A program made the translations under genes and the position numbers. Of a DNA stretch of 64,000 bases, positions 46,134-62,344 are shown piece by piece. Numbering within the stretch: position 1 is the stretch's first letter; each line of letters begins with the position of its first letter. The notes under the pieces were generated by a model that was given only the letters and a program-made list of their open reading frames with translations, did not search any database and had not been told where the DNA came from. Source of the DNA: Verrucomicrobiia bacterium (GTDB lineage: Bacteria > Verrucomicrobiota > Verrucomicrobiia > Limisphaerales > Pedosphaeraceae); the NCBI GenBank assembly GCA_036268055.1, contig DATAUW010000018.1, positions 62,001 through 126,000 of the forward strand, written 5' to 3'.

Positions 46134-47639
46134 TTAGTTATTTGTTCCCGCCAGCACTTCCTCAAAATCCACGATCTCCTTGATCTGCGTCAGGAACCAC
46201 CGGTCCACTTTGCACAAGTCAAAAATCTCATCCACCGTCATGCCCGCGCGCAACGCGTGGCGAATAAAGAAAATCCGCTCTGCATTCGGCGTGCTCAATT
46301 TGCGCGTGATAACTTCGCGCGGTAAAATATCGCGGTCGCCATACACATCCGTGCCGATGCGCCAGGGTTTGCCATCGCCGCCCAAACCGCTGCGACCGAT
46401 TTCCAGCGAGCGCAAACATTTTTGCAGCGATTCCTTGAACGTGCGCCCGATGGCCATCGCCTCGCCAACCGATTTCATCTGCGTGTTCAGTGTCGGGTCG
46501 GCTTGCGGAAATTTCTCGAAAGCAAACCGCGGAATTTTCGTCACCACATAATCAATCGTCGGCTCAAAGCTCGCCGGCGTTTCGCGTGTGATGTCGTTCT
46601 TGATTTCGTCGAGCAAATAACCCACCGCCAGCTTCGCCGCAATCTTCGCAATCGGAAAACCCGTCGCCTTCGACGCCAGCGCCGACGACCGCGACACGCG
46701 CGGATTCATCTCGATGATCACCATGCGCCCGTTATCTGGATTCACGCCGAACTGGATGTTCGACCCGCCCGTCTCCACGCCGATCTCGCGGATCACCGCG
46801 AACGACGCGTCGCGCATGATTTGAAATTCCTTGTCCGTCAGCGTCTGGATGGGCGCGACGGTGATGGAATCGCCGGTATGCACACCCATCGGATCAAAAT
46901 TTTCAATCGAGCAAATGATGACGCAATTATCGGCGCGGTCGCGCATCACTTCCATCTCGTATTCCTTCCAGCCGAGCAGTGATTCCTCCACCAAAATTTC
47001 CGACACCGGCGAAAGCTCAATCCCGCGCTTCGCAATCTCCTCGAACTCCTCGCGATTGTAAGCGATGCCGCCGCCCGTGCCGCCCAGCGTATACGCGGGG
47101 CGAATGATCAATGGCAACCGCCCAATCCTTTCCGCCACCGCGCGCGCTTCCTCGACATTGTGCGCCGTGCCGCTGATCGGCACATCGAGCCCAATCTTGA
47201 GCATCAAGTCCTTGAAAATCTGCCGGTCCTCGCCGCGCTCAATCGCCCGTGCGTTCGCGCCGATCATTTCGACGCCGTATTTTTCCAGCGTGCCGCGGCG
47301 CGCCAGCGCCATCGCCGTGTTCAACGCCGTCTGTCCGCCCAGCGTCGGCAGCAAGACCAATTTGCCCTTCGCGCCCTGCCGCTTCAATTCTTCCACTTCG
47401 CGCGCGATGATTTTTTCCACGCACTCCGGCGTGATCGGCTCGATGTAAGTGCGGTCGGCGAATTCGGGGTCCGTCATGATCGTCGCGGGATTCGAGTTCA
47501 CGAGGATGACGCGATAACCCTCTTCGCGCAGTGCCTTGCAAGCCTGCGTGCCCGAATAATCAAACTCACACGCCTGGCCAATGATGATTGGCCCCGCGCC
47601 GATGATAAGAACAGAATGAATGTCAGTACGTTTCGGCAT
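46134..47639 (-). CDS. carB: Carbamoyl-phosphate synthase large subunit, N-terminal half (split CarB)
   Basis: 501 residues where complete CarB has about 1070. It contains the whole first ATP-grasp (carboxyphosphate) half: [120 protein letters not shown] and [30 protein letters not shown]. It ends early in the oligomerisation domain ([21 protein letters not shown]) with a clean stop, not a frameshift. The C-terminal (carbamate) half is not in the window. This is the natural split known from some archaea and thermophiles. Feeds pyrimidine and arginine synthesis. Confidence 0.93.
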
Positions 47640-53090: not shown

Positions 53091-54389
53091 ATGAAAGTCG
53101 CCGCATTTCTTCCGGCCAAAGGCACCAGCAACCGCGTGCCCAATAAAAATACCATGCTGCTCGACGGCGACCCGATGTTTCTTCGCAGTTTGCGCAAGCT
53201 CATCGCCTGCTCGGGCATTGATGAAGTCTGGCTCGATACCGAGTCGCACGAAATCGCCGATCTGGCCAGCGACCTCAAGTGCAAATGGCTTCGCCGCGAC
53301 CCTGTCCTCGCCAATAATAAAACCGATGGCAACCAGCTTTTCTTCAACGAAATCCAGAGCACCGATGCCGACATCTGCGTGATGCTTCTCTGCACTTCAC
53401 CGTTCATTCAGCAGAGCACCATCGAGAAGGCGATTGAGATTCTCAAGACCGACTCGCGCTACGATTCCGTCGTCGCCGTTCGCAAGGAAAAACAATATCT
53501 CTGGCAGCAGGGCCACCCGGCGTATTCGCTCGACCGCATTCCCAACAGCATTGATTTGCCGGACACGACCGTTGAAACGATGGGCCTCTACGTCATGCGC
53601 CGCGATGCCGTGCTGCAACTCAAACGCCGCATCGGCAACAATCCTTATCTGCTCGAAATCGAACCCATCGAAAGTGTGGATGTGAATTGGCCGCGCGATT
53701 TTGAACTTGCGAATCTTATCGCCGTCGGCCTGCGCGAACAGGAACGCCGCCTCTTCAACAACCTGAAATTGCAATTCAATAGCCCGCTGCTTTCCGACGT
53801 GCTGGACGATCTTGGCATTGACGGCGTGCTCTCCAAGGATTTCAAACTCAACCTGCCGCAATCGAAAGTCCTTGGCCGCGCGAAGACGATGCAGATTGAC
53901 AGTTGCAAGGACGACGAGGATTTCAAAAAAATTTACGACAGTCTCGCGCTTTACGATCACGTGGTCTCGAATGATGTCGTCGTCGTCGCGAATCACGCGC
54001 CGAACTTTGCTTTCTTTGGTGAACTCAACGCGAATCTGGCCATTCGCGCCGGTGCGGTCGGCGCCATTATTGACGGCGTCACTCGCGATACGCGCGATAC
54101 GGTTGGCATGGGTTTTCCCGTGTTTGCCAAGGGACACTACTGCAAGGACACGCGCAAACGTGGCGTCGTCACTTCGCGCAATCGCACGGTGTTGATTGAT
54201 GAAATCAGCATCCACAAGGACGACCTGATTTTTGGCGATACCGATGGCATCGTCGTCATTCCCAAGCAGCACGAGAAGGCCGTGCTTGCCGAAGCGCTCA
54301 AGCGCCGCAAAAACGAATCGTCCATCCTGCTCGCCATTGCCGAAGGCATGGAGACAAATCAGTTGGTAAAAGAATTCGGCCTATTTTAA
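53091..54389 (+). CDS. Fusion: acylneuraminate cytidylyltransferase-like domain + RraA-like domain
   Basis: 432 residues in one uninterrupted frame. Residues about 1-225 are a NeuA/KdsB-type cytidylyltransferase: FLPAKGTSNRVPNKNTMLLDGDPMFLRSLRKLIA (CTP loop), DTESHEIADLA, VMLLCTSPFIQQSTIEKAIEIL, ETMGLYVMRRDAVL. Residues about 235-425 are RraA/HMG-aldolase-like: FFGELNANLAIRAGAVGAIIDGVTRDTRDTVGMGFPVFAKG, with the characteristic R-D pair, and IFGDTDGIVVIPKQHEKAVL. It may activate a sialic/legionaminic-type or Kdo-type sugar and cleave or process a keto acid; RraA members can be aldolases. A capsule-type glycosyltransferase gene follows after 9 bp. Confidence 0.88.
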   Translation: MKVAAFLPAKGTSNRVPNKNTMLLDGDPMFLRSLRKLIACSGIDEVWLDTESHEIADLASDLKCKWLRRDPVLANNKTDGNQLFFNEIQSTDADICVMLLCTSPFIQQSTIEKAIEILKTDSRYDSVVAVRKEKQYLWQQGHPAYSLDRIPNSIDLPDTTVETMGLYVMRRDAVLQLKRRIGNNPYLLEIEPIESVDVNWPRDFELANLIAVGLREQERRLFNNLKLQFNSPLLSDVLDDLGIDGVLSKDFKLNLPQSKVLGRAKTMQIDSCKDDEDFKKIYDSLALYDHVVSNDVVVVANHAPNFAFFGELNANLAIRAGAVGAIIDGVTRDTRDTVGMGFPVFAKGHYCKDTRKRGVVTSRNRTVLIDEISIHKDDLIFGDTDGIVVIPKQHEKAVLAEALKRRKNESSILLAIAEGMETNQLVKEFGLF

Positions 54390-54398
54390 TCCAATAAA

Positions 54399-55985
54399 GT
54401 GACGCCGAACATTTGCCTGGCCTTCAATTATCTCTTGTGGACTGAGCCCACGCGCCAGATGTGGACCAACCTCGCGCGTCATCTCGAGGAATTCGATTTT
54501 CAACTCGTTCTGCTAAGCACCGCTCCGGTGGAAAGCCCGCTGCCTTTTCCCGTGCTGCCTATTCCATTTTTGTTGCGCGATTATGCCACGCAATTTCCCG
54601 GCGCGACCGTCGAAGGTGGCCACTATTCGCCCGGCGATTGGGACATCGCCTGCGCGGACAGCAGCCGTTCTCATGGCGCTTACCCGCCCGCCGAAGCAAT
54701 TCCCGGCTTGCAAGTTTGCCGCAGCGTCCTGCGAACCATTTTAAAAACTTTGCAACCCGGCTTCGTGCTGACGTGGGATTCCACCTCGCCACTCGCGCGC
54801 GTTGCACATGGCCTTTGCCTCGAAGCGGGCATGCCCGTGCAAAGCCTTGAACGCGGTTTGCTGCCCGAGACTTTGATGATTGAAAGTCGCGGCATTCAGG
54901 GCCACTCGGACTTGCGGACTCACTGGCTCGCGCAGGAAATTTCCGCCGCCGAGCCTTCCGCCTACGAGCGCGTGCGCAGCTTCTACGTGAATCGCAAGCC
55001 GCAGAAATATCAGCAACCGGAATTCAACGGCGGCGGCGCGCAGTTGCGCGAAGAATGGAAACTCGGCGCGAAGAAAGCGGTCATGTTTTTCGGACACTAT
55101 GATCCGTGCGGATTAACGCCCGCCGACGGCGCGCAACGCCGCTATCATTCGCCCGCGTTCGCGTCCACGGAAGATTTGCTGATGAGCCTCGGCGCGCTCC
55201 TGAAAAATTCCACGGACTGCGCGCTCATTTTCAAGCCGCATCCGCTTGATAAAAATCCCTACGCAGCCGCCGCAGCGCAAGGCACGCGCATCGTCAACGA
55301 TGTGAATGTGCATGCATTGATGGACCTCGCCTCCGTCGTGGTGGCGCAATTTACCACGCTGCAATTTGAGGCGGCGCTTTACGAAAAACCAGTTCTTCTG
55401 GCTGGCCGTAGCGCGTGGTGGGGCCGGGGTGCTACTTACGAAGTGGCGCGGCGCGAAGATTTAGGCTCGGGGCTGTTGGCGGCATTGCGCGGCGAGGATT
55501 GGGCCGCGCGCTCCGCGAATGCCCGAGTCTTTCTCACCTGGATCATGGAGCACTGGCTCATTGGCTGTTCGAGTGTCGTGCCGGCGCGGCGCAATCTCTC
55601 CGAGTTGGCAAAATTTTTAGCAACGACTTCGCTCGAAGCGAACGCCGACACTTCCGCTGAAAAACGGGTGGCGTCGGCGCAAAAACAATTTGAATCGTGG
55701 CGAACCATTGCCATTGCATCCACGCCGGTTGCTTCCGAAAGTTCCGAGGTTCTTCGCGAACGCGCCGAAGTGTTGCGCCAGCTTGCTTCATGGGAATCCG
55801 CCGCGGAAATTTATCGCACGCTCTCCAATCAATTTCCCGACGATTTGGAAATCTGGCAAAAACGCATTGAATGTGCCACGCGCGCCGGCCAAAAATTCGT
55901 CGCCGGACTTCTGCGCGGCGATGCCCTGCGCGCGCATCCTGAATGGGCGGACAAACTGGATAACGTCATTCCGACTCGCGGATAA
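54399..55985 (+). CDS. Capsule-type polysaccharide synthesis glycosyltransferase (GT-B-like)
   Basis: 528 residues from GTG 54399, 9 bp after the fusion gene. No membrane segments. The central part has the KpsC/KpsS-like features: FGHYDPCGLTPADG, CALIFKPHPLDKNPY (KPHP motif that binds the nucleotide phosphate), VNVHALMDLASVVVAQFTTLQFEAALYEKPVLLAGRSAWWG. The C-terminal 100 residues (SSEVLRERAEVLRQLASWESAAEIYRTLSNQFPDDLEIWQKRIECATRAG) look like a tetratricopeptide hairpin. It probably adds the sugar activated by the upstream fusion enzyme to a surface glycan. Exact family uncertain. Confidence 0.75.
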   Translation: MTPNICLAFNYLLWTEPTRQMWTNLARHLEEFDFQLVLLSTAPVESPLPFPVLPIPFLLRDYATQFPGATVEGGHYSPGDWDIACADSSRSHGAYPPAEAIPGLQVCRSVLRTILKTLQPGFVLTWDSTSPLARVAHGLCLEAGMPVQSLERGLLPETLMIESRGIQGHSDLRTHWLAQEISAAEPSAYERVRSFYVNRKPQKYQQPEFNGGGAQLREEWKLGAKKAVMFFGHYDPCGLTPADGAQRRYHSPAFASTEDLLMSLGALLKNSTDCALIFKPHPLDKNPYAAAAAQGTRIVNDVNVHALMDLASVVVAQFTTLQFEAALYEKPVLLAGRSAWWGRGATYEVARREDLGSGLLAALRGEDWAARSANARVFLTWIMEHWLIGCSSVVPARRNLSELAKFLATTSLEANADTSAEKRVASAQKQFESWRTIAIASTPVASESSEVLRERAEVLRQLASWESAAEIYRTLSNQFPDDLEIWQKRIECATRAGQKFVAGLLRGDALRAHPEWADKLDNVIPTRG

Positions 55986-56021: not shown

Positions 56022-57215
56022 TTACTTAGAATTTCCGATCCAGAGTATCGGCTGAGTAATGGCAATGTTGCGTTGAACTTCTGCGTTGGTGGGGTCCGGC
56101 GGCAGTTTTTTCCACAGCGTCAAATATTTTTCCTCGTCGAGTTTCAATCCGGCAAAGAGCAGACACGGTTCGCGCGACGGCCAGCTATCCCACGCCATCA
56201 CGTCCGGCTTGTAGGGCCACGCAGATTTGTCGGCGAGATACGGATAAAGAAACGCCACGGCCTTCGCGATGCCGCGTCCGTCCGGCAAGCTATATAGCCA
56301 GAGATCTTCTTTGCTGGTCGAAAGCACCTGGCAAAGCGTGGCCATATTATCCAGTTGAAAAATCGAATAGGCATAAGGCTTCGTGCGTTTGAGTTCCGCC
56401 GGAAAACTTCCATCCGCCGCCATTTGTTTCGCCACGAACGCCTCCTTATACTTCTGCCGGCATTCCGTCATTTTTTCCTCGTCGCCCACAAATTTCGAGA
56501 ACACCGCGAGTTGGAGATAGAAGGCCACCGCGTGATTGTTGAGCGTGTTCGCCTCGTCATGGCCATTTTTGCTCGTGGTCATCCACGTGCTGTAATCAGT
56601 GAACCAGCTTTTGAGCCCGTCCAAAACATCCCGTGGAAATGCCGGTGACGCGCTCAAAGCCTCGATGGCCACCGGCACCTCGATCAGATGCAGTGTATCA
56701 ATAATGCCGATGCCGCGCCCGGTGGAAACACCCGGTATCGCCTGCGCATAATTCAAACTCGGATTCATGCGCGTTTTTGGATCGATAAAAAACACCCGCA
56801 GCAACGCCGCCGCCTTCGCCGCGTAACGGTCGTCGCCCGTGATCTTGTAAGCGGCTCCCAGCGCGGCCACGGCGTCGCGCAACTGCATAACGCATTTCCG
56901 ATGCTCGATAAAATTTTCGGGATTCGATTGCCCGTCGCGCTGAATGTACGGCAATCCATTCGACTTTGACGGGTCGGGCCACCAATAATCGCCATTGGAA
57001 TAAAAGTCGTTCGACCCGCCCTGGCTGAGCTTCGCCGGGAACGCCGTAATAGTGATCGGCTCCAGCGCGAGGGCATTCGTGGCGGCGGCAAGGATGCGCG
57101 CGCGTTCGATGTCCGCCACGTTCAATGTCGGCAGCGCGGCCCGTGTCATTGGAGACGCCAGCCAAAAAAACAAAATGCAGCCCAGCAGACGCGCAACCTT
57201 TGAGAATGACTTCAT
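56022..57215 (-). CDS. Secreted alginate lyase-family protein (PL5-like)
   Basis: 397 residues from ATG 57215, which opens a signal peptide (MKSFSKVARLLGCILFFWLASPMTRA). Family signatures: SNGDYWWPDPSK, MNPSLNYAQAIPGVSTGRGIGIIDTLHLIEVPVAI, GHDEANTLNNHAVAFYLQLAVFSKFVGDEEK, ELKRTKPYAYSIFQLDNMATLCQVL, with the catalytic-type Asn-Asn-His. It would depolymerise alginate or another uronate polymer. Stands alone, divergent from the WXG100-like gene; the 211 bases between hold both promoters but no clear motif. Confidence 0.9.
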   Translation of the reverse strand: MKSFSKVARLLGCILFFWLASPMTRAALPTLNVADIERARILAAATNALALEPITITAFPAKLSQGGSNDFYSNGDYWWPDPSKSNGLPYIQRDGQSNPENFIEHRKCVMQLRDAVAALGAAYKITGDDRYAAKAAALLRVFFIDPKTRMNPSLNYAQAIPGVSTGRGIGIIDTLHLIEVPVAIEALSASPAFPRDVLDGLKSWFTDYSTWMTTSKNGHDEANTLNNHAVAFYLQLAVFSKFVGDEEKMTECRQKYKEAFVAKQMAADGSFPAELKRTKPYAYSIFQLDNMATLCQVLSTSKEDLWLYSLPDGRGIAKAVAFLYPYLADKSAWPYKPDVMAWDSWPSREPCLLFAGLKLDEEKYLTLWKKLPPDPTNAEVQRNIAITQPILWIGNSK

Positions 57216-57426
57216 AATTATTAAACTATCATTGGATGGGAATGGTTGGCAATCGTACATGTGCCGTCCTCATCGCGAATGCCGCCCAAGGCAGCCCTGC
57301 ACGGCAAATTTTAAACCGAGAAAATGTGGGAAACGGTTTGCGCAGCGGCCAAAAAGCGGGCAAGTTAAGGCAAGCCGGAGACGCGATAGCAGGCAAACGC
57401 TTTTCCGGCAAAGAGAAAGCATTATT

Positions 57427-57699
57427 ATGGCGCAGGCAATAATGGATCCGGAGGAGGTGCGGCGGTTCGCCCAGGAATTGAAAAAATTCAACGCCGATTT
57501 ACAAAATGGCATGGCGTCATTGCAGGCGCGGTTTTCCGCCCTCGGCGATACGTGGCAGGACCAGGAGCAAGTCCGCTTCGCCGACGAATTCAAGACGACA
57601 ATGAAGGCGTTAAAAAAGTTCATCGAGATTTCAAATCAGCAAACCCCCTTCCTGTTGCGCAAGGCGCAGCGCATTGAGGAATATCTGAACCAGCATTAG
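57427..57699 (+). CDS. WXG100-like (ESAT-6 family) small protein
   Basis: 90 residues from ATG 57427; an open frame extends far upstream but reads as unrelated. Two helices with a turn at GDTWQDQEQVRFADEF: Trp43 is followed by Gln-Asp rather than x-Gly, so it is a W-x-D variant of the W-x-G motif. Length is close to the 100 residues of the family. These proteins are small secreted substrates/co-factors of type VII secretion. It is the first gene of a four-gene run ending in an EssC-like ATPase, the usual pairing. No C-terminal YxxxD/E signal is evident (it ends LRKAQRIEEYLNQH). Confidence 0.82.
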   Translation: MAQAIMDPEEVRRFAQELKKFNADLQNGMASLQARFSALGDTWQDQEQVRFADEFKTTMKALKKFIEISNQQTPFLLRKAQRIEEYLNQH

Positions 57700-58255: not shown

Positions 58256-58464
58256 GCTTGCGAAATAACGGCACGAGTCTGGCGATGATGACGAAAGAAT
58301 TGATCGGCCGCTGGAAAACCACCCGGGAATATTGGAAGGACGCGAAGAGTGAGGAGTTCGAGAAAAAGTACATCGAGGAGTTGCAGGCGAGCGTGGACAA
58401 TGCCGTCGTCATCATCGAGCAGCTCGACAAGATCATAAACAAAATCAGGAAAGACTGTGAGTAA
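58252..58464 (+). CDS. Small helical protein of the WXG100/FtsK locus
   Basis: 70 residues: MSLRNNGTSLAMMTKELIGRWKTTREYWKDAKSEEFEKKYIEELQASVDNAVVIIEQLDKIINKIRKDCE. Two helices; WKTTREYWKDAKSEEFEKKY recalls the helix-turn of WXG proteins (W-x-D-A...F), so it may be a second, divergent ESX-like partner. It overlaps the upstream gene by 4 bp and the ATPase start by 8 bp; all four genes are surely co-expressed. Confidence 0.8.
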   Translation: MSLRNNGTSLAMMTKELIGRWKTTREYWKDAKSEEFEKKYIEELQASVDNAVVIIEQLDKIINKIRKDCE

Positions 58465-61400
58465 CCATCAAGGGGTAAAAAAGACACTGGTGCTGGTGGA
58501 AGACCTGAAAGCCGTGGTGAGCGATTTCGCGGCCCGCGAGGAAAAGCTCGACCGCGATCTGCGCGTGAAATCTGGCCGCGAACGCCAGCACAATGAAGAA
58601 GAGGCTGCCGAGGAGGCGCGCCAAACCGCCGCCGAACGCGACGCGGCGGAATCGGAATTTCAAGCGGAGAAAGATGCGATCGAATCGCGTTACACCCAGT
58701 GGAAGGCGCGCATCAACCGGGCGCGCAGTTCGAGCAAGGAGCAAACGTCCGAGCGCATCGAGAACCGCACCGGCACGCGCAAGTATGAGCTGCAAAAATT
58801 GCTGATGGAGACGGAGCGCAGCCGCGACGGCGCGTTCGCGCAAACCGCCGCGCGTTTCCAGGATTTCAATACGAATCTCGCGACGGAGTTGGTGAATTTG
58901 GAAGCGCTGGAGCGGCGCGCGCGAAATTCCTTGCGCAGTTATTTCAAGTTTTCCTTCATGCTCGCGCGCGCGAAAGAAAAAGCGGAAGTCAATCTCGCGC
59001 CGGATGAGGAACAGTTGTTCGCCGAGATGCGCGCGTTGCTGGCGAAAGCGTCGGAAGATTTGAAACGGTTTCGCTGGCAGCCGTTTTCAATATTGTTTCG
59101 ATATTTGCCGGTGTGGCTGTTGCTGCCGTTGTGTGCCACGCCAATGGTGTTGCAGCGTTTCGGCATCGGTTCGCTCACGCACGACGGGGCGATGGGCGCG
59201 TCCATCGGCGCGGCGGTGGTGGTGCTGGTGCTTTATTTCGTCGGGCAAAGCCAGGGTGATAAACTCGCCAGCGGAATCGCGACCGCGCTGGGCAAGGCGC
59301 GAAAATTATACGCCGCGTGCCTCGAAAAGTCCGACACGCATCATCAAAGCGAACTTGAGCGGTTGCAAGGCGAGTTCGAGGCGGCGACGCAGATGATTGA
59401 CGATGATTTGAAACGGACGTTGAAAGAGGCCGGCAGTTTGCGCGGGACGTTCCGTGAAAAAATTGATGACAAAACCGTGCGCATCACGGCGACGAATGAG
59501 CGCATCCGCAAAGCCCGACTGGCGAAAGCGGAAGACAAGCACGCGCATCGGGTGGAAGTGGTGGAGAAAACCATCGCCGCGCGCGAAGGCGCTTTTGGCA
59601 AAATGATGGATGTGCGCAACGCCGGTTCCAGCGCCGAGCAACAACGCATCTGGCAGGAGTTGGAAAAGGAATGGCTTGAGCGGACACAACCGATTTACGC
59701 GGCGCTCGCGGATTTAAAGGCGGACTCGGAAAATCTATTTCCGCCGTGGCAGGAAAATTGGCTGAAGAATTGGACGCCGCCCGCAAAGTTCGAGCACGCC
59801 GCAAAATTCGCGGACCTGCAAGTGGATGTCGAAAAATTGAGCGGCGCGATTCCGAAAAACAAGCGGCTCGCGCTGCCCGGCCCGGCCCGTTTTGATGCGC
59901 CCATGCTGCTTACATATCCAGACCAGGGTTCGGTGTTGTTCGAGACCAACGGCGGCGGCACCGCCAAGGTCATTGACGCGCTGAATAATATTATTTTGCG
60001 TCTGCTCGCCTCCGCACCTCCGGGGCGATTGAGCTTCACGATCATTGACCCGATCGGCCTTGGCCAAAATTTTGCCGGCGCGATGCATCTCGCGGATTAC
60101 GGCGAACATCTCATCAACAGCCGCATTTGGACGCAGCCTTCGCAGATCGAGCAACGCCTTGGCGAGTTGAACGAGCACATGGAAAAAGTGATCCAGATGT
60201 ATTTGCGCAACGAATATGAAACCATCGCGCAATACAACGAAGCCGCCGGAAACATTGCCGAGCGTTACCAGATTTTGGTGATCGCGGATTTCCCGGTGAA
60301 CTTCAGCGAGCTGGCGGCGAAGCGGTTGATGAGCATTGCCACGAGCGGCGCGCGTTGCGGGGTTTTTACTCTGATTCATTGGGACCATCGCCACCCGGCC
60401 TTGCAGGATTTTATGCCGGACGAATTGCGCCGCAACAGCGTTTGCGTGACGGTCAAGGGCAACGATTTATTTTTCACGAACAAACCATTGCCGGGAACGA
60501 ACCTTCAACTCGACGTTCCGCCGCCCGCGGAACTGGCGACCGAATTTATTCACACCGTCGGCAAAAACAGCCGCGACTCCAGCCGCGTGGAAGTTCCATT
60601 CTCGCAGGTCGCCCCCACCGACGACAATTTGTGGAGCGAAGACACGACGAGCGAGATGCGCGTGCCCATCGGCCGCACGGGCGCGACGAAATTGCAATAT
60701 GTCGCCATCGGGCGCGGCACGCGGCAACACGCGCTTATCGCCGGTAAAACCGGTTCCGGCAAATCCACGTTGTTTCACGTGATGATCACGAATCTCGCGT
60801 TGTGGTGCAGCCCGGAGCAGGTGGAATTTTATCTCGTGGATTTCAAGAAGGGCGTCGAGTTCAAATGTTACGCCGCGAAACGATTGCCGCACGCGCGCGT
60901 AGTGGCGATTGAGAGCGATCGCGAATTTGGCCTGAGCGTTTTGCAACGCGTGGATGACGAATTGAAACGGCGCGGCGATATGTTCCGCAAACTGGGTGTG
61001 CAGGACATCGCCGGTTACAAGCGCGCGGGCGGAAAAGAACCGGTTCCGCGCTCGCTGCTAATGATTGACGAGTTCCAGGAATTGTTCGTCGAGGATGATA
61101 AGATTTCGCAGAGCGCGAATCTGTTGCTCGACCGCATCGTACGCCAGGGCCGCGCGTTTGGCGTGCATGTCATTTTGGGTTCGCAAACTCTCGGCGGCGC
61201 TTACACCGTGGCGCGCACGACGCTTGGGCAAATGGTCATCCGCATCGCGCTCATGTGCAACGAGGCCGACGCGTATCTTATCATGGACGACAGCAATCCC
61301 GCGCCGCGCCTGCTCACGCGTCCCGGCGAAGGCATTTATAACGACATGGCCGGCGCGCTTGAAGGCAACAGTCCGTTCCAAACCGTGTGGCTCTCCGATG

Positions 61401-62344
61401 AAATTCGCGACAGCTATCTCGAAAAAGTGCGGCAACGCGCGGTGCAGGAAGGCATGGGGCACATCGGGCCCATCGTGTATGAAGGCGATGCGCCGGCGGA
61501 CATCCGCGAGAATCGTTTGCTTCAGCAATTGCTCGAAGTTGAGGCCGTCAAACCGCCGTCGTCGCCACGCATCTGGCTCGGCGCGCCCAATTCCATCAAG
61601 GGTCCGACCGAGGCCGTGTTCCATCGCCAGAGTGGAAATAATTTATTGATCGTCGGCCAGCGCGAGGAAGCGGCGCTGGGAATTCTCTCGCTTGCGCTGG
61701 TTTCGCTCGCGGCGCAATATCCCGTGGGCGCGGCGAACTTCATCGTGTTCGACGGCACGACGCCGGGATCGCAACAGCGCGAATTTTTGGAACGCATCAC
61801 GCGGGCGATTCCGCATCAGGTGACGCTCGCCCGTGGCAGCGATCTTGGCGAAGTGCTCGGCAATCTTTCCGCCGACCTGAAAAAGCGCGTTGAGGAAGAT
61901 CATGGCAGCGGCGCTCCGGCGACGTTTGTGTTTTTCCACGGGTTGCAAAAGTTCAACAAACTGCGGCGCGAAGATGACTTTGGATTTTCGTCCGGTGACG
62001 CGTCGGCAAGCCCGAGCGAATTGCTCAACGGTATTATCACGGAAGGCGCGAGCTTGGGCATCCACCTGATTGTGAGTTGCGACACGTATAACAACGTGAA
62101 CCGGTTTCTCAGCAAGAAGGCGTTCAGCGAATTCGAGATGCGCGTGTTGTTCCAGATGAGCGCGAACGATTCGGCGAACCTGTGCGACAGTCCCCGCGCC
62201 AGCATGCTCGGCTTGCATCGCGCCTTGTTCTACAATGAACAAGAAGGTTATCTCGAAACCTTCCGGCCATACGCGTTGCCGGACGGCGATTGGGTTGAGC
62301 AGGCCGAGAAAAATTTGCGGCGGCTGGTGAGTTCGGTAAGCTGA
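58457..62344 (+). CDS. EssC/EccC-like FtsK/SpoIIIE ATPase of a type VII-like secretion locus
   Basis: 1295 residues from GTG 58457. Residues 1-200 are charged coiled coil. Two membrane segments lie at about 217-262 (PVWLLLPLCATPMVL, MGASIGAAVVVLVLYFVG), followed by a second coiled coil to about 420. Then three FtsK-like modules: module 1 (about 470-660) lacks a Walker A; module 2 has GKTGSGKST at 763-771 and Walker B LLMIDE with D871/E872; module 3 (about 1035-1290) has a degenerate P-loop GQREEAALG and FFHGLQ instead of Walker B. This architecture is that of EccC/EssC, but without the FHA domains of EssC. It would drive export of the WXG100-like protein. No EccB/D/E or EsaA/EssA/EssB homologue is seen. 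Confidence 0.9.
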   Translation: MSNHQGVKKTLVLVEDLKAVVSDFAAREEKLDRDLRVKSGRERQHNEEEAAEEARQTAAERDAAESEFQAEKDAIESRYTQWKARINRARSSSKEQTSERIENRTGTRKYELQKLLMETERSRDGAFAQTAARFQDFNTNLATELVNLEALERRARNSLRSYFKFSFMLARAKEKAEVNLAPDEEQLFAEMRALLAKASEDLKRFRWQPFSILFRYLPVWLLLPLCATPMVLQRFGIGSLTHDGAMGASIGAAVVVLVLYFVGQSQGDKLASGIATALGKARKLYAACLEKSDTHHQSELERLQGEFEAATQMIDDDLKRTLKEAGSLRGTFREKIDDKTVRITATNERIRKARLAKAEDKHAHRVEVVEKTIAAREGAFGKMMDVRNAGSSAEQQRIWQELEKEWLERTQPIYAALADLKADSENLFPPWQENWLKNWTPPAKFEHAAKFADLQVDVEKLSGAIPKNKRLALPGPARFDAPMLLTYPDQGSVLFETNGGGTAKVIDALNNIILRLLASAPPGRLSFTIIDPIGLGQNFAGAMHLADYGEHLINSRIWTQPSQIEQRLGELNEHMEKVIQMYLRNEYETIAQYNEAAGNIAERYQILVIADFPVNFSELAAKRLMSIATSGARCGVFTLIHWDHRHPALQDFMPDELRRNSVCVTVKGNDLFFTNKPLPGTNLQLDVPPPAELATEFIHTVGKNSRDSSRVEVPFSQVAPTDDNLWSEDTTSEMRVPIGRTGATKLQYVAIGRGTRQHALIAGKTGSGKSTLFHVMITNLALWCSPEQVEFYLVDFKKGVEFKCYAAKRLPHARVVAIESDREFGLSVLQRVDDELKRRGDMFRKLGVQDIAGYKRAGGKEPVPRSLLMIDEFQELFVEDDKISQSANLLLDRIVRQGRAFGVHVILGSQTLGGAYTVARTTLGQMVIRIALMCNEADAYLIMDDSNPAPRLLTRPGEGIYNDMAGALEGNSPFQTVWLSDEIRDSYLEKVRQRAVQEGMGHIGPIVYEGDAPADIRENRLLQQLLEVEAVKPPSSPRIWLGAPNSIKGPTEAVFHRQSGNNLLIVGQREEAALGILSLALVSLAAQYPVGAANFIVFDGTTPGSQQREFLERITRAIPHQVTLARGSDLGEVLGNLSADLKKRVEEDHGSGAPATFVFFHGLQKFNKLRREDDFGFSSGDASASPSELLNGIITEGASLGIHLIVSCDTYNNVNRFLSKKAFSEFEMRVLFQMSANDSANLCDSPRASMLGLHRALFYNEQEGYLETFRPYALPDGDWVEQAEKNLRRLVSSVS

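Follow-up and report, generated by a model that had tools for sequence, protein, structure and literature searches.

The window, i.e. the whole stretch of 64 000 nucleotides of Verrucomicrobiia DNA that was analysed, carries at positions 53091–54389 of the plus strand an uninterrupted reading frame of 432 amino acids, which runs from an ATG to a TAA. The frame encodes a fusion of a putative CMP-ulosonate synthetase domain and an RraA-like domain. The N-terminal cytidylyltransferase domain (residues 1–210) is encoded by positions 53091–53720 and the C-terminal RraA-like domain (residues 231–432) by positions 53781–54386, both on the plus strand. At the amino acid sequence level, residues 5–130 belong to the Pfam family CTP_transf_3 (PF02348; 59.5 bits, gathering score 22.6) and residues 234–389 to the RraA-like family (PF03737; 88.9 bits, gathering score 24.5). 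The RraA half has an adjacent arginine and aspartate, R332–D333. A sequence-only reading had proposed that one frame joins a CMP-sugar-synthetase-type domain to an RraA-type domain with such a pair, and this is upheld. The gene is found once in the window's genome (5.1 Mb, 41 contigs).

The AlphaFold2 model of the fusion protein, which was made with 45 fusions as input, has a mean pLDDT of 93.3. Comparisons of this predicted model by Foldseek and VIA-align 2 match residues 1–214 to CMP-Kdn, CMP-sialate and CMP-Pse synthetases, with CMP-Kdo synthetases lower. The nearest solved structure to the N-terminal domain is that of the CMP-Kdn synthetase PpNeuA (9t4z), with a Z score of 26.7; that of 2y6p is 22.4. 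By the same methods the second half of the model matches RraA-like proteins and HMG/CHA aldolase (5ir2, 3k4i and 5x15, and 3noj with a Z score of 23.7), and the RraA fold expected of this half is therefore present in the prediction. The fusion is a genuine single protein with two confidently predicted folds.

Nine bases after the fusion a second gene begins with a GTG codon (positions 54399–55985, plus strand). Pfam and fold searches point to a GT-B-like protein and a likely glycosyltransferase partner of the fusion. The score of 30.9 bits on Capsule_synth (PF05159; cut-off 20) agrees with the earlier statement that a capsule-type glycosyltransferase follows; a TPR match is below its cut-off. 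Capsule_synth is the family of the KpsC/KpsS beta-Kdo transferases. The model of the downstream protein is of moderate quality (pLDDT 67.8), and its fold search gives a generic GT-B assignment only, with WbbB and KpsC among many GT-B folds listed. A sequence profile built on the downstream gene (A4) matched WbbB at 7e-7 and KpsC at 6e-4, but it included the gene next to a related fusion, L033, and that gene has a GT99 domain (107 bits). GT99 is the family of the WbbB beta-Kdo transferase (PMC9587256, in excerpt). When L033 is removed the WbbB match is gone and KpsC alone is found, at an E value of 1.1. Profile and fold searches together show no closer tie of the downstream gene to the beta-Kdo transferases (GT99/GT107).

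No NCBIfam cut-off is passed by the window's fusion or by three other fusions tested, and thus the architecture has no curated name there. The N-terminal domain shares its fold with NeuA, PseF and the CMP-Kdn synthetases (PF02348 family; 9t4z, 1eyr, 9ftc), and catalytic motif residues are conserved. Among all 62 fusions collected (see below), K10, S13, R15, K19 and N20 are identical in the 61 sequences that cover them, D94 in 62 of 62 and D197 in 60 of 60; by their roles we take these to be the catalytic motif residues. PseF (TIGR03584) is the best NCBIfam CMP-sugar model for the domain, yet the score is 54.9 bits against a cut-off of 205.7, and no NeuB in the window's genome is over cut-off. 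Fusions of NeuA enzymes with an O-acetylesterase are known. The same chemistry is expected for the fusion as for KdsB/KpsU, the CMP-Kdo synthetase, and in some Firmicutes loci the fusion stands beside kdsA, kdsD and kdsC in the position at which the genome G451 has a partial kdsB. The fusion differs from KdsB in that it is far from the equivalog model (TIGR00466; 18.8 bits, cut-off 155.2), has a NeuA-like domain of ∼210 residues and is joined to RraA. The N-terminal domain may work like KdsB, but it is not a member of the KdsB family.

In HMG/CHA aldolase the pyruvate enolate is stabilised by Arg-123, and the metal is bound by Asp-124 and Glu-199 (PMC5065237, in excerpt). Alignment to 3noj places R332–D333 of the fusion (positions 54084–54089, plus strand) at Arg-123 and Asp-124, and E409 (positions 54315–54317, plus strand) at Glu-199. 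R332 and D333 are kept in all 60 fusions that reach these sites and E409 in all 59, and the fusions therefore have the conserved residues of RraA-type class II pyruvate lyases. By alignment, E311 (positions 54021–54023, plus strand) is an acid that precedes the R-D pair in the arrangement D/E-X20-R-D. An acid is found at 311 in 55 of 60 fusions, and the remaining five carry a Glu at 336, an either-or pattern that is not significant by Fisher's test (p 0.073; 45 rows, not independent). Mazurkewich and co-workers reportedly defined, in 2014, the metal motifs D-X20-R-D and G-X20-R-D-X2-E/D, and the acid, R-D and Glu pattern of the fusions fits these. With the R-D pair and the metal-ligand Glu so completely kept, the RraA half is probably catalytic and metal-dependent.

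A second set of residues separates the fusions from free-standing RraA proteins. An alignment of 45 fusions shows no variation at Y282, V299, F309, N313 and T331, where 15 solo RraA proteins have other residues, and Y288 is likewise invariant at a position where the solo proteins have a gap. T331 adjoins the R-D pair, and N313 is three residues from G310. These residues suggest that the fusions share one conserved substrate, unlike that of the solo RraA proteins. D353 was also considered as a fusion-specific residue and was rejected, as it is present in the 15 solo proteins.

The RraA half does not fall into the characterised families of its fold. It is far below the cut-off for RraA proper, the RNase E regulator (NF006875; 32.7 bits, cut-off 136), and a reading of the fusion as an RNase E regulator was rejected on this ground. 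It has the fold of HMG/CHA aldolase (LigK, GalC) and the three catalytic residues, but it is far under the LigK equivalog cut-off (TIGR02798; 66.9 bits, cut-off 304.5). Two models, PRK07028 (hexulose-6-phosphate synthase-RraA) and PRK12764 (FAH-RraA), also have an RraA-type region at the C-terminal end; the fusion aligns to the C-terminal part only, far below both cut-offs, and the fused N-terminal enzymes differ, by their family names. Kdo has a 3-deoxy-2-keto-4-hydroxy acid unit, as does 2-keto-3-deoxy-glucarate. The RraA-family protein FlDet is described in an excerpt of PMC8563752 as a dehydratase/decarboxylase of 2-keto-3-deoxy-glucarate, and is thus an RraA-type protein that acts on a 2-keto-3-deoxy sugar acid, a substrate class related to Kdo. 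FlDet differs from the fusion in being free-standing and catabolic.

The fusion is not confined to one assembly. Full-length relatives with ∼44% identity are present in two of 386 other genomes of the phylum, and fusion relatives are found at 61 other loci in a species-level genome collection. These loci were found by two conserved peptide patterns of the N-terminal half, so that the sample is not random and not exhaustive; many come from metagenome-assembled genomes (MAGs) with uncertain taxon names. By size and match position, the two phylum loci are probably the contigs of L057 and L065. The relatives at 57 of the 61 loci are near full length, starting within the first three residues of the query and reaching at least residue 414, and four loci are partial (L084, L088, L090, L092). 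None of the 61 matched stretches contains a stop codon. The domain order therefore recurs as the sequence-only reading had asked, its concern that the fusion might be unique to this assembly is refuted, and an assembly artefact is rejected. The alignment (A2), the tree and the structure prediction use 45 of the 62 fusions (the 61 and that of the window), and the residue counts use all 62, of which L090 and L092 fall short of the RraA active site.

A quick tree of RraA halves groups the 45 fused domains together, apart from 15 solo RraA proteins, which were chosen from the phylum for their similarity to the protein of the window. The row nearest to the window's fusion is L033, from a Verrucomicrobiales MAG. 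Eleven phylum-level labels, many of them MAG labels, are present among the 45: Verrucomicrobiota, Kiritimatiellota, Ignavibacteriota, Bacteroidota, Myxococcota, Pseudomonadota, Bacillota, Planctomycetota, Fidelibacterota, Melainabacteria and Elusimicrobiota. These phyla are interleaved in the tree, which suggests that the fusion arose once and then spread horizontally. Phage records gave no match to the fusion, no plasmid record covered 80% of the fusion query, and a scan of viral contigs gave one pattern match and no fusion relative; a phage or plasmid origin was rejected on these searches. A plasmid region and six solo-N loci were inspected for split versions, with an N-domain gene beside a separate RraA gene, and none was found. 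The former is a capsule-like cluster of NeuB/NeuA type, and its gene table, known to be incomplete, annotates no RraA; at the six solo-N loci tblastn with the fusion gave N-domain matches only.

Genes around the fusion were compared by calling and clustering open reading frames in the 61 loci, the window and two duplicates. The longest-ORF scheme used is crude and found no fusion frame in L054, L091 and L092, although the matched stretches are open in all three. Adjacent same-strand neighbours often lie within a few bases of the fusion, and several overlap it by 1–4. A Pfam scan at E ≤ 0.001 covered 69 of the 76 adjacent same-strand frames; those dropped are a 2560-amino-acid frame in L039, the window's upstream lactonase and one each in L033, L076, L079, L082 and L085. 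The 69 neighbours include 11 MptE-like, seven DAHP_synth_1, six SIS, six CBS, seven NTP_transf_3, five Capsule_synth and three polysialyltransferase matches, where at this threshold some MptE-like matches are under Pfam's own cut-off. The NeuB model gave two weak matches among the 69 at E ≤ 0.001 (best 5.3e-5).

A protein search of the 62 loci found KdsA at nine, KdsD at 11, KdsC at six, any of these three at 14 and MptE-like proteins at 16. At all nine loci that have KdsA, its gene adjoins the fusion. Three KdsA proteins beside fusions were scored, and all three pass TIGR01362 with 403–415 bits (cut-off 314); the one KdsC example passes the TIGR01670 subfamily model, and both KdsD examples pass the KpsF/GutQ subfamily model and are under the KdsD equivalog cut-off. 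The motif KANR is a mark of Kdo8P synthases, and KPR is found in DAHP synthases. Seven of eight proteins of the KdsA cluster have KANR; the eighth (L048:7204–8010) is a DAHP-synthase-type outlier further from the fusion. Three Firmicutes loci (L045, L049 and L093) have the order fusion-kdsA-kdsD, which kdsC follows in the first two, and other Firmicutes fusion loci have kds genes in other orders. No kds genes were found near the fusion in 48 of the 62 loci, the window included, where several loci end at contig edges. The proposed look at the neighbours for nonulosonate or Kdo synthesis genes thus finds kds genes at 14 of 62 fusions and none near the window's own. At a broader level, the kds context of these 14 loci and the conserved catalytic residues support the proposed tie between an aldolase-type RraA domain and keto-sugar activation. 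As a separate observation, the kdsA adjoining the fusion at L093:8995–9849 (the same contig as L108) is broken by an in-frame TAG.

The strongest evidence on the role of the N-terminal half comes from the place that kdsB would occupy. The search for kdsB covered 38 fusion genomes, the window's included (drawn from 38 of the 61 loci plus the window's genome, with L041 left out). KdsB is over cut-off in 27 of the 38, again including the window's, and 11 have none over cut-off, where the absence of kdsB from a MAG may reflect incompleteness. KdsA is over cut-off in all 13 genomes tested, i.e. the 11 without kdsB plus G000 and G406. NeuB was searched for in 19 fusion genomes; it scores over 200 bits in seven, and 12 have no NeuB over 100 bits. 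Five of the 11 genomes without KdsB (G392, G397, G398, G401, G414) have NeuB over 200 bits, and the contig that encodes it has another cytidylyltransferase-like match below cut-off; the fusion is thus not the sole candidate there. In the remaining six, NeuB does not exceed 100 bits. In Agathobacter ruminis (G405) a single KdsA is present, and neither KdsB nor NeuB gives a match (E 0.001). Two KdsA proteins are over cut-off in G406; one is encoded on the contig that bears the fusion, the other next to a canonical KdsB.

Of 149 genomes drawn around G402 (its class), two, G402 and G451, have KdsA over cut-off. In G402 kdsA is beside the fusion, and no other of the 149 has the fusion at E 1e-40. 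The operon kdsA-kdsD-YhcH-kdsC of G451 (L107:7418–10086) has a partial canonical kdsB beside kdsA (97.3 bits, below cut-off, model positions 125–240) and no fusion match in the stretch. Thus, in some loci with kdsA, kdsD and kdsC, the fusion is found in the kdsB place. This argues that the N-terminal half does the work of KdsB although it fails the KdsB model. YhcH (DUF386), which is present in this one kds operon, is found at none of the 62 fusion loci. The genome of L107 was drawn without regard to the fusion, and its Kdo operon lies next to genes that read as recombinase-like.

KdsA, a canonical KdsB and KdsD (KpsF/GutQ model) are each over cut-off once in the window's genome, and none of the three lies on the contig of the fusion. 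No NeuB is over cut-off; the best match has 20.2 bits against 22.1 and overlaps a site that matches the KdsA model at 130.6 bits, under the KdsA cut-off, and is taken for a DAHP synthase gene. Among the surface ulosonic acids tested, Kdo alone therefore has its usual synthase in this genome. A new nonulosonate-like pathway, one of the two possibilities first raised for the fusion, is not borne out here, and a nonulosonate pathway in the window's genome was rejected for want of a NeuB-type synthase over cut-off.

To our knowledge there is no biochemistry of the fusion. The reading we prefer, the chances of which we judge to be about even, is that of a bifunctional surface-glycan enzyme that couples synthesis of CMP-Kdo, or of a close relative, to RraA-type editing or tailoring of the ulosonate. 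The N-terminal half would use CTP to form CMP-Kdo, or the corresponding CMP-sugar of a near relative of Kdo, doing the job of KdsB from the NeuA/PseF-like branch. Against this, 27 of the 38 fusion genomes searched, that of the window among them, also have a normal KdsB, and a second source of CMP-Kdo is not obviously needed. The CMP-ulosonate would then pass to a neighbouring glycosyltransferase for capsule, LPS or protein glycosylation; in the window this may be the downstream gene. The RraA half would act on the 3-deoxy-2-keto-4-hydroxy acid class that includes Kdo, making and breaking the C3–C4 bond of the open-chain sugar via a metal-bound pyruvate enolate. Two outcomes can be envisaged. 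Arabinose and pyruvate might leave, which would dispose of Kdo that is not activated; or the aldehyde might turn and add back, which would epimerise C4. Ribulose-phosphate 4-epimerase brings about C4 epimerisation in this way, by an aldehyde turn and re-addition. Dehydration is another possible reaction of the RraA half on the sugar. This half would most likely serve to edit or tailor the ulosonate next to the site of activation, by retro-aldol cleavage or by re-addition to the C4 epimer. Control of free versus activated sugar, the other possibility first raised, is possible, and an aldolase beside an activating site could also give a futile cycle. A Maf enzyme in E. coli can put Kdo on flagellin when the native donor is absent (PMC11339370, in excerpt), and MptE-like neighbours would accordingly fit protein glycosylation in some hosts.

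Perhaps the RraA half has no reaction of its own and is an oligomerisation or regulatory module of an ordinary CMP-Kdo synthetase, sensing pyruvate, oxalate or another keto acid, for example. Solved RraA-type proteins are oligomers. The normal KdsB works without such a domain and coexists with the fusion in 27 of the 38 genomes searched. In addition, RraA of E. coli is a modulator of the RNA degradosome, to which it binds (PMC5065237, in excerpt). A purely structural role would not need an active site, however, and every fusion that reaches them retains the residues that HMG/CHA aldolase uses for the enolate and the metal; F309, N313 and T331 nearby (also Y282 and V299) are invariant in the 45 fusions, unlike in the 15 solo proteins. 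We regard a module of this kind as unlikely.

The N-terminal domain is closest in predicted structure to the CMP-Kdn synthetase PpNeuA and, among the NCBIfam CMP-sugar models, to PseF, which raises the question of whether a nonulosonic acid (Kdn, legionaminic or pseudaminic type) is activated in place of Kdo and edited by the RraA half. The MptE-like (Maf-type) genes at 16 of 62 loci and the NeuB proteins over 200 bits in seven of 19 genomes are in keeping with this. It is nevertheless quite unlikely: 12 of the 19 genomes have no NeuB over 100 bits, neither the window's genome nor that of its nearest tree relative (G387) has one over cut-off, and the synthase found beside the fusion is KdsA (nine of 62 loci), the NeuB model giving only the two weak matches among 69 neighbours. 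Distinctly improbable is a route in which the RraA half joins pyruvate to an aldose and the N-terminal half activates the product to its CMP form, bypassing the phosphoenolpyruvate (PEP)-dependent synthases. In its favour, class II pyruvate aldolases are reversible, no kdsA was found close to the window's fusion or to those of 52 of the 61 other loci, and the window's genome lacks NeuB over cut-off. Against it, the PEP-dependent KdsA encoded directly beside nine of 62 fusions would be redundant, and kdsA and kdsD are present elsewhere in the window's genome.

The preferred reading, of CMP-Kdo synthesis with editing of the ulosonate, can be carried further. The RraA half might re-sculpt Kdo before activation, to the C4 epimer by retro-aldol and re-addition or by exchange of the aldehyde, and so supply a never-described CMP-ulosonate for surface glycans or protein glycosylation in many phyla, Gram-positives included. 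We consider this doubtful; if it were true, a gene could be assigned to Kdo aldolase chemistry (EC 4.1.2.23), for which we know of no assigned gene.

The activation of Kdo belongs to the textbook biology of Gram-negative bacteria. KdsB has been put forward as a target for antibiotics (PMC7717453, in excerpt), and a Kdo cassette in a Gram-positive, with kdsB, has been reported (PMC4744853, in excerpt). In the openly licensed PMC literature no paper has both 'RraA' and 'cytidylyltransferase', and in related searches there no title or abstract among the matches listed describes the fusion. The fusion thus appears to be present in many bacterial groups and to be unstudied. It is widespread, has no name and probably activates Kdo, with an RraA aldolase-type domain that looks active. 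What is new is a putative second form of the Kdo-activating enzyme, widespread and with an aldolase-type active site of its own, which occurs also among Firmicutes and in certain genomes where no KdsB is over cut-off. It makes testable whether a cell edits or remodels an ulosonic acid at the point of activation, and it offers a definite proposal for the substrate of one RraA branch.

Two further gene arrangements were seen beside fusions. In L064, L067, L069, L071, L072, L077 and L078 two conserved genes (clusters c16 and c11) come after the fusion, with an M1 peptidase gene near, and these seven loci form a second conserved setting. Labels are from one representative each: c16 is NTP_transf_3-like, c11 has a marginal Glyphos_transf match and c1 is the M1 peptidase. 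At L048:5543–8535, a stand-alone cytidylyltransferase (219 amino acids), a short DAHP-synthase-type protein with the motif KPRTS and a KdsC-like phosphatase are encoded beside the fusion. This second ulosonate-like set might make a CMP-activated seven-carbon acid.

The window itself has other genes of note. An Alginate_lyase-family protein (267.6 bits) is encoded on the opposite strand beside the glycosyltransferase gene (positions 56022–57260, minus strand). On the plus strand a WXG100-family protein (positions 57052–57699; 36.9 bits, cut-off 27.3) is followed by one open reading frame without a Pfam match and by a 1295-amino-acid FtsK/SpoIIIE-type ATPase (positions 58457–62344), which looks like a type VII secretion-like locus. 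Upstream of the fusion, a 501-amino-acid frame (positions 46134–47639, minus strand) reads, from its translation, like only one half of the carbamoyl-phosphate synthase large subunit.
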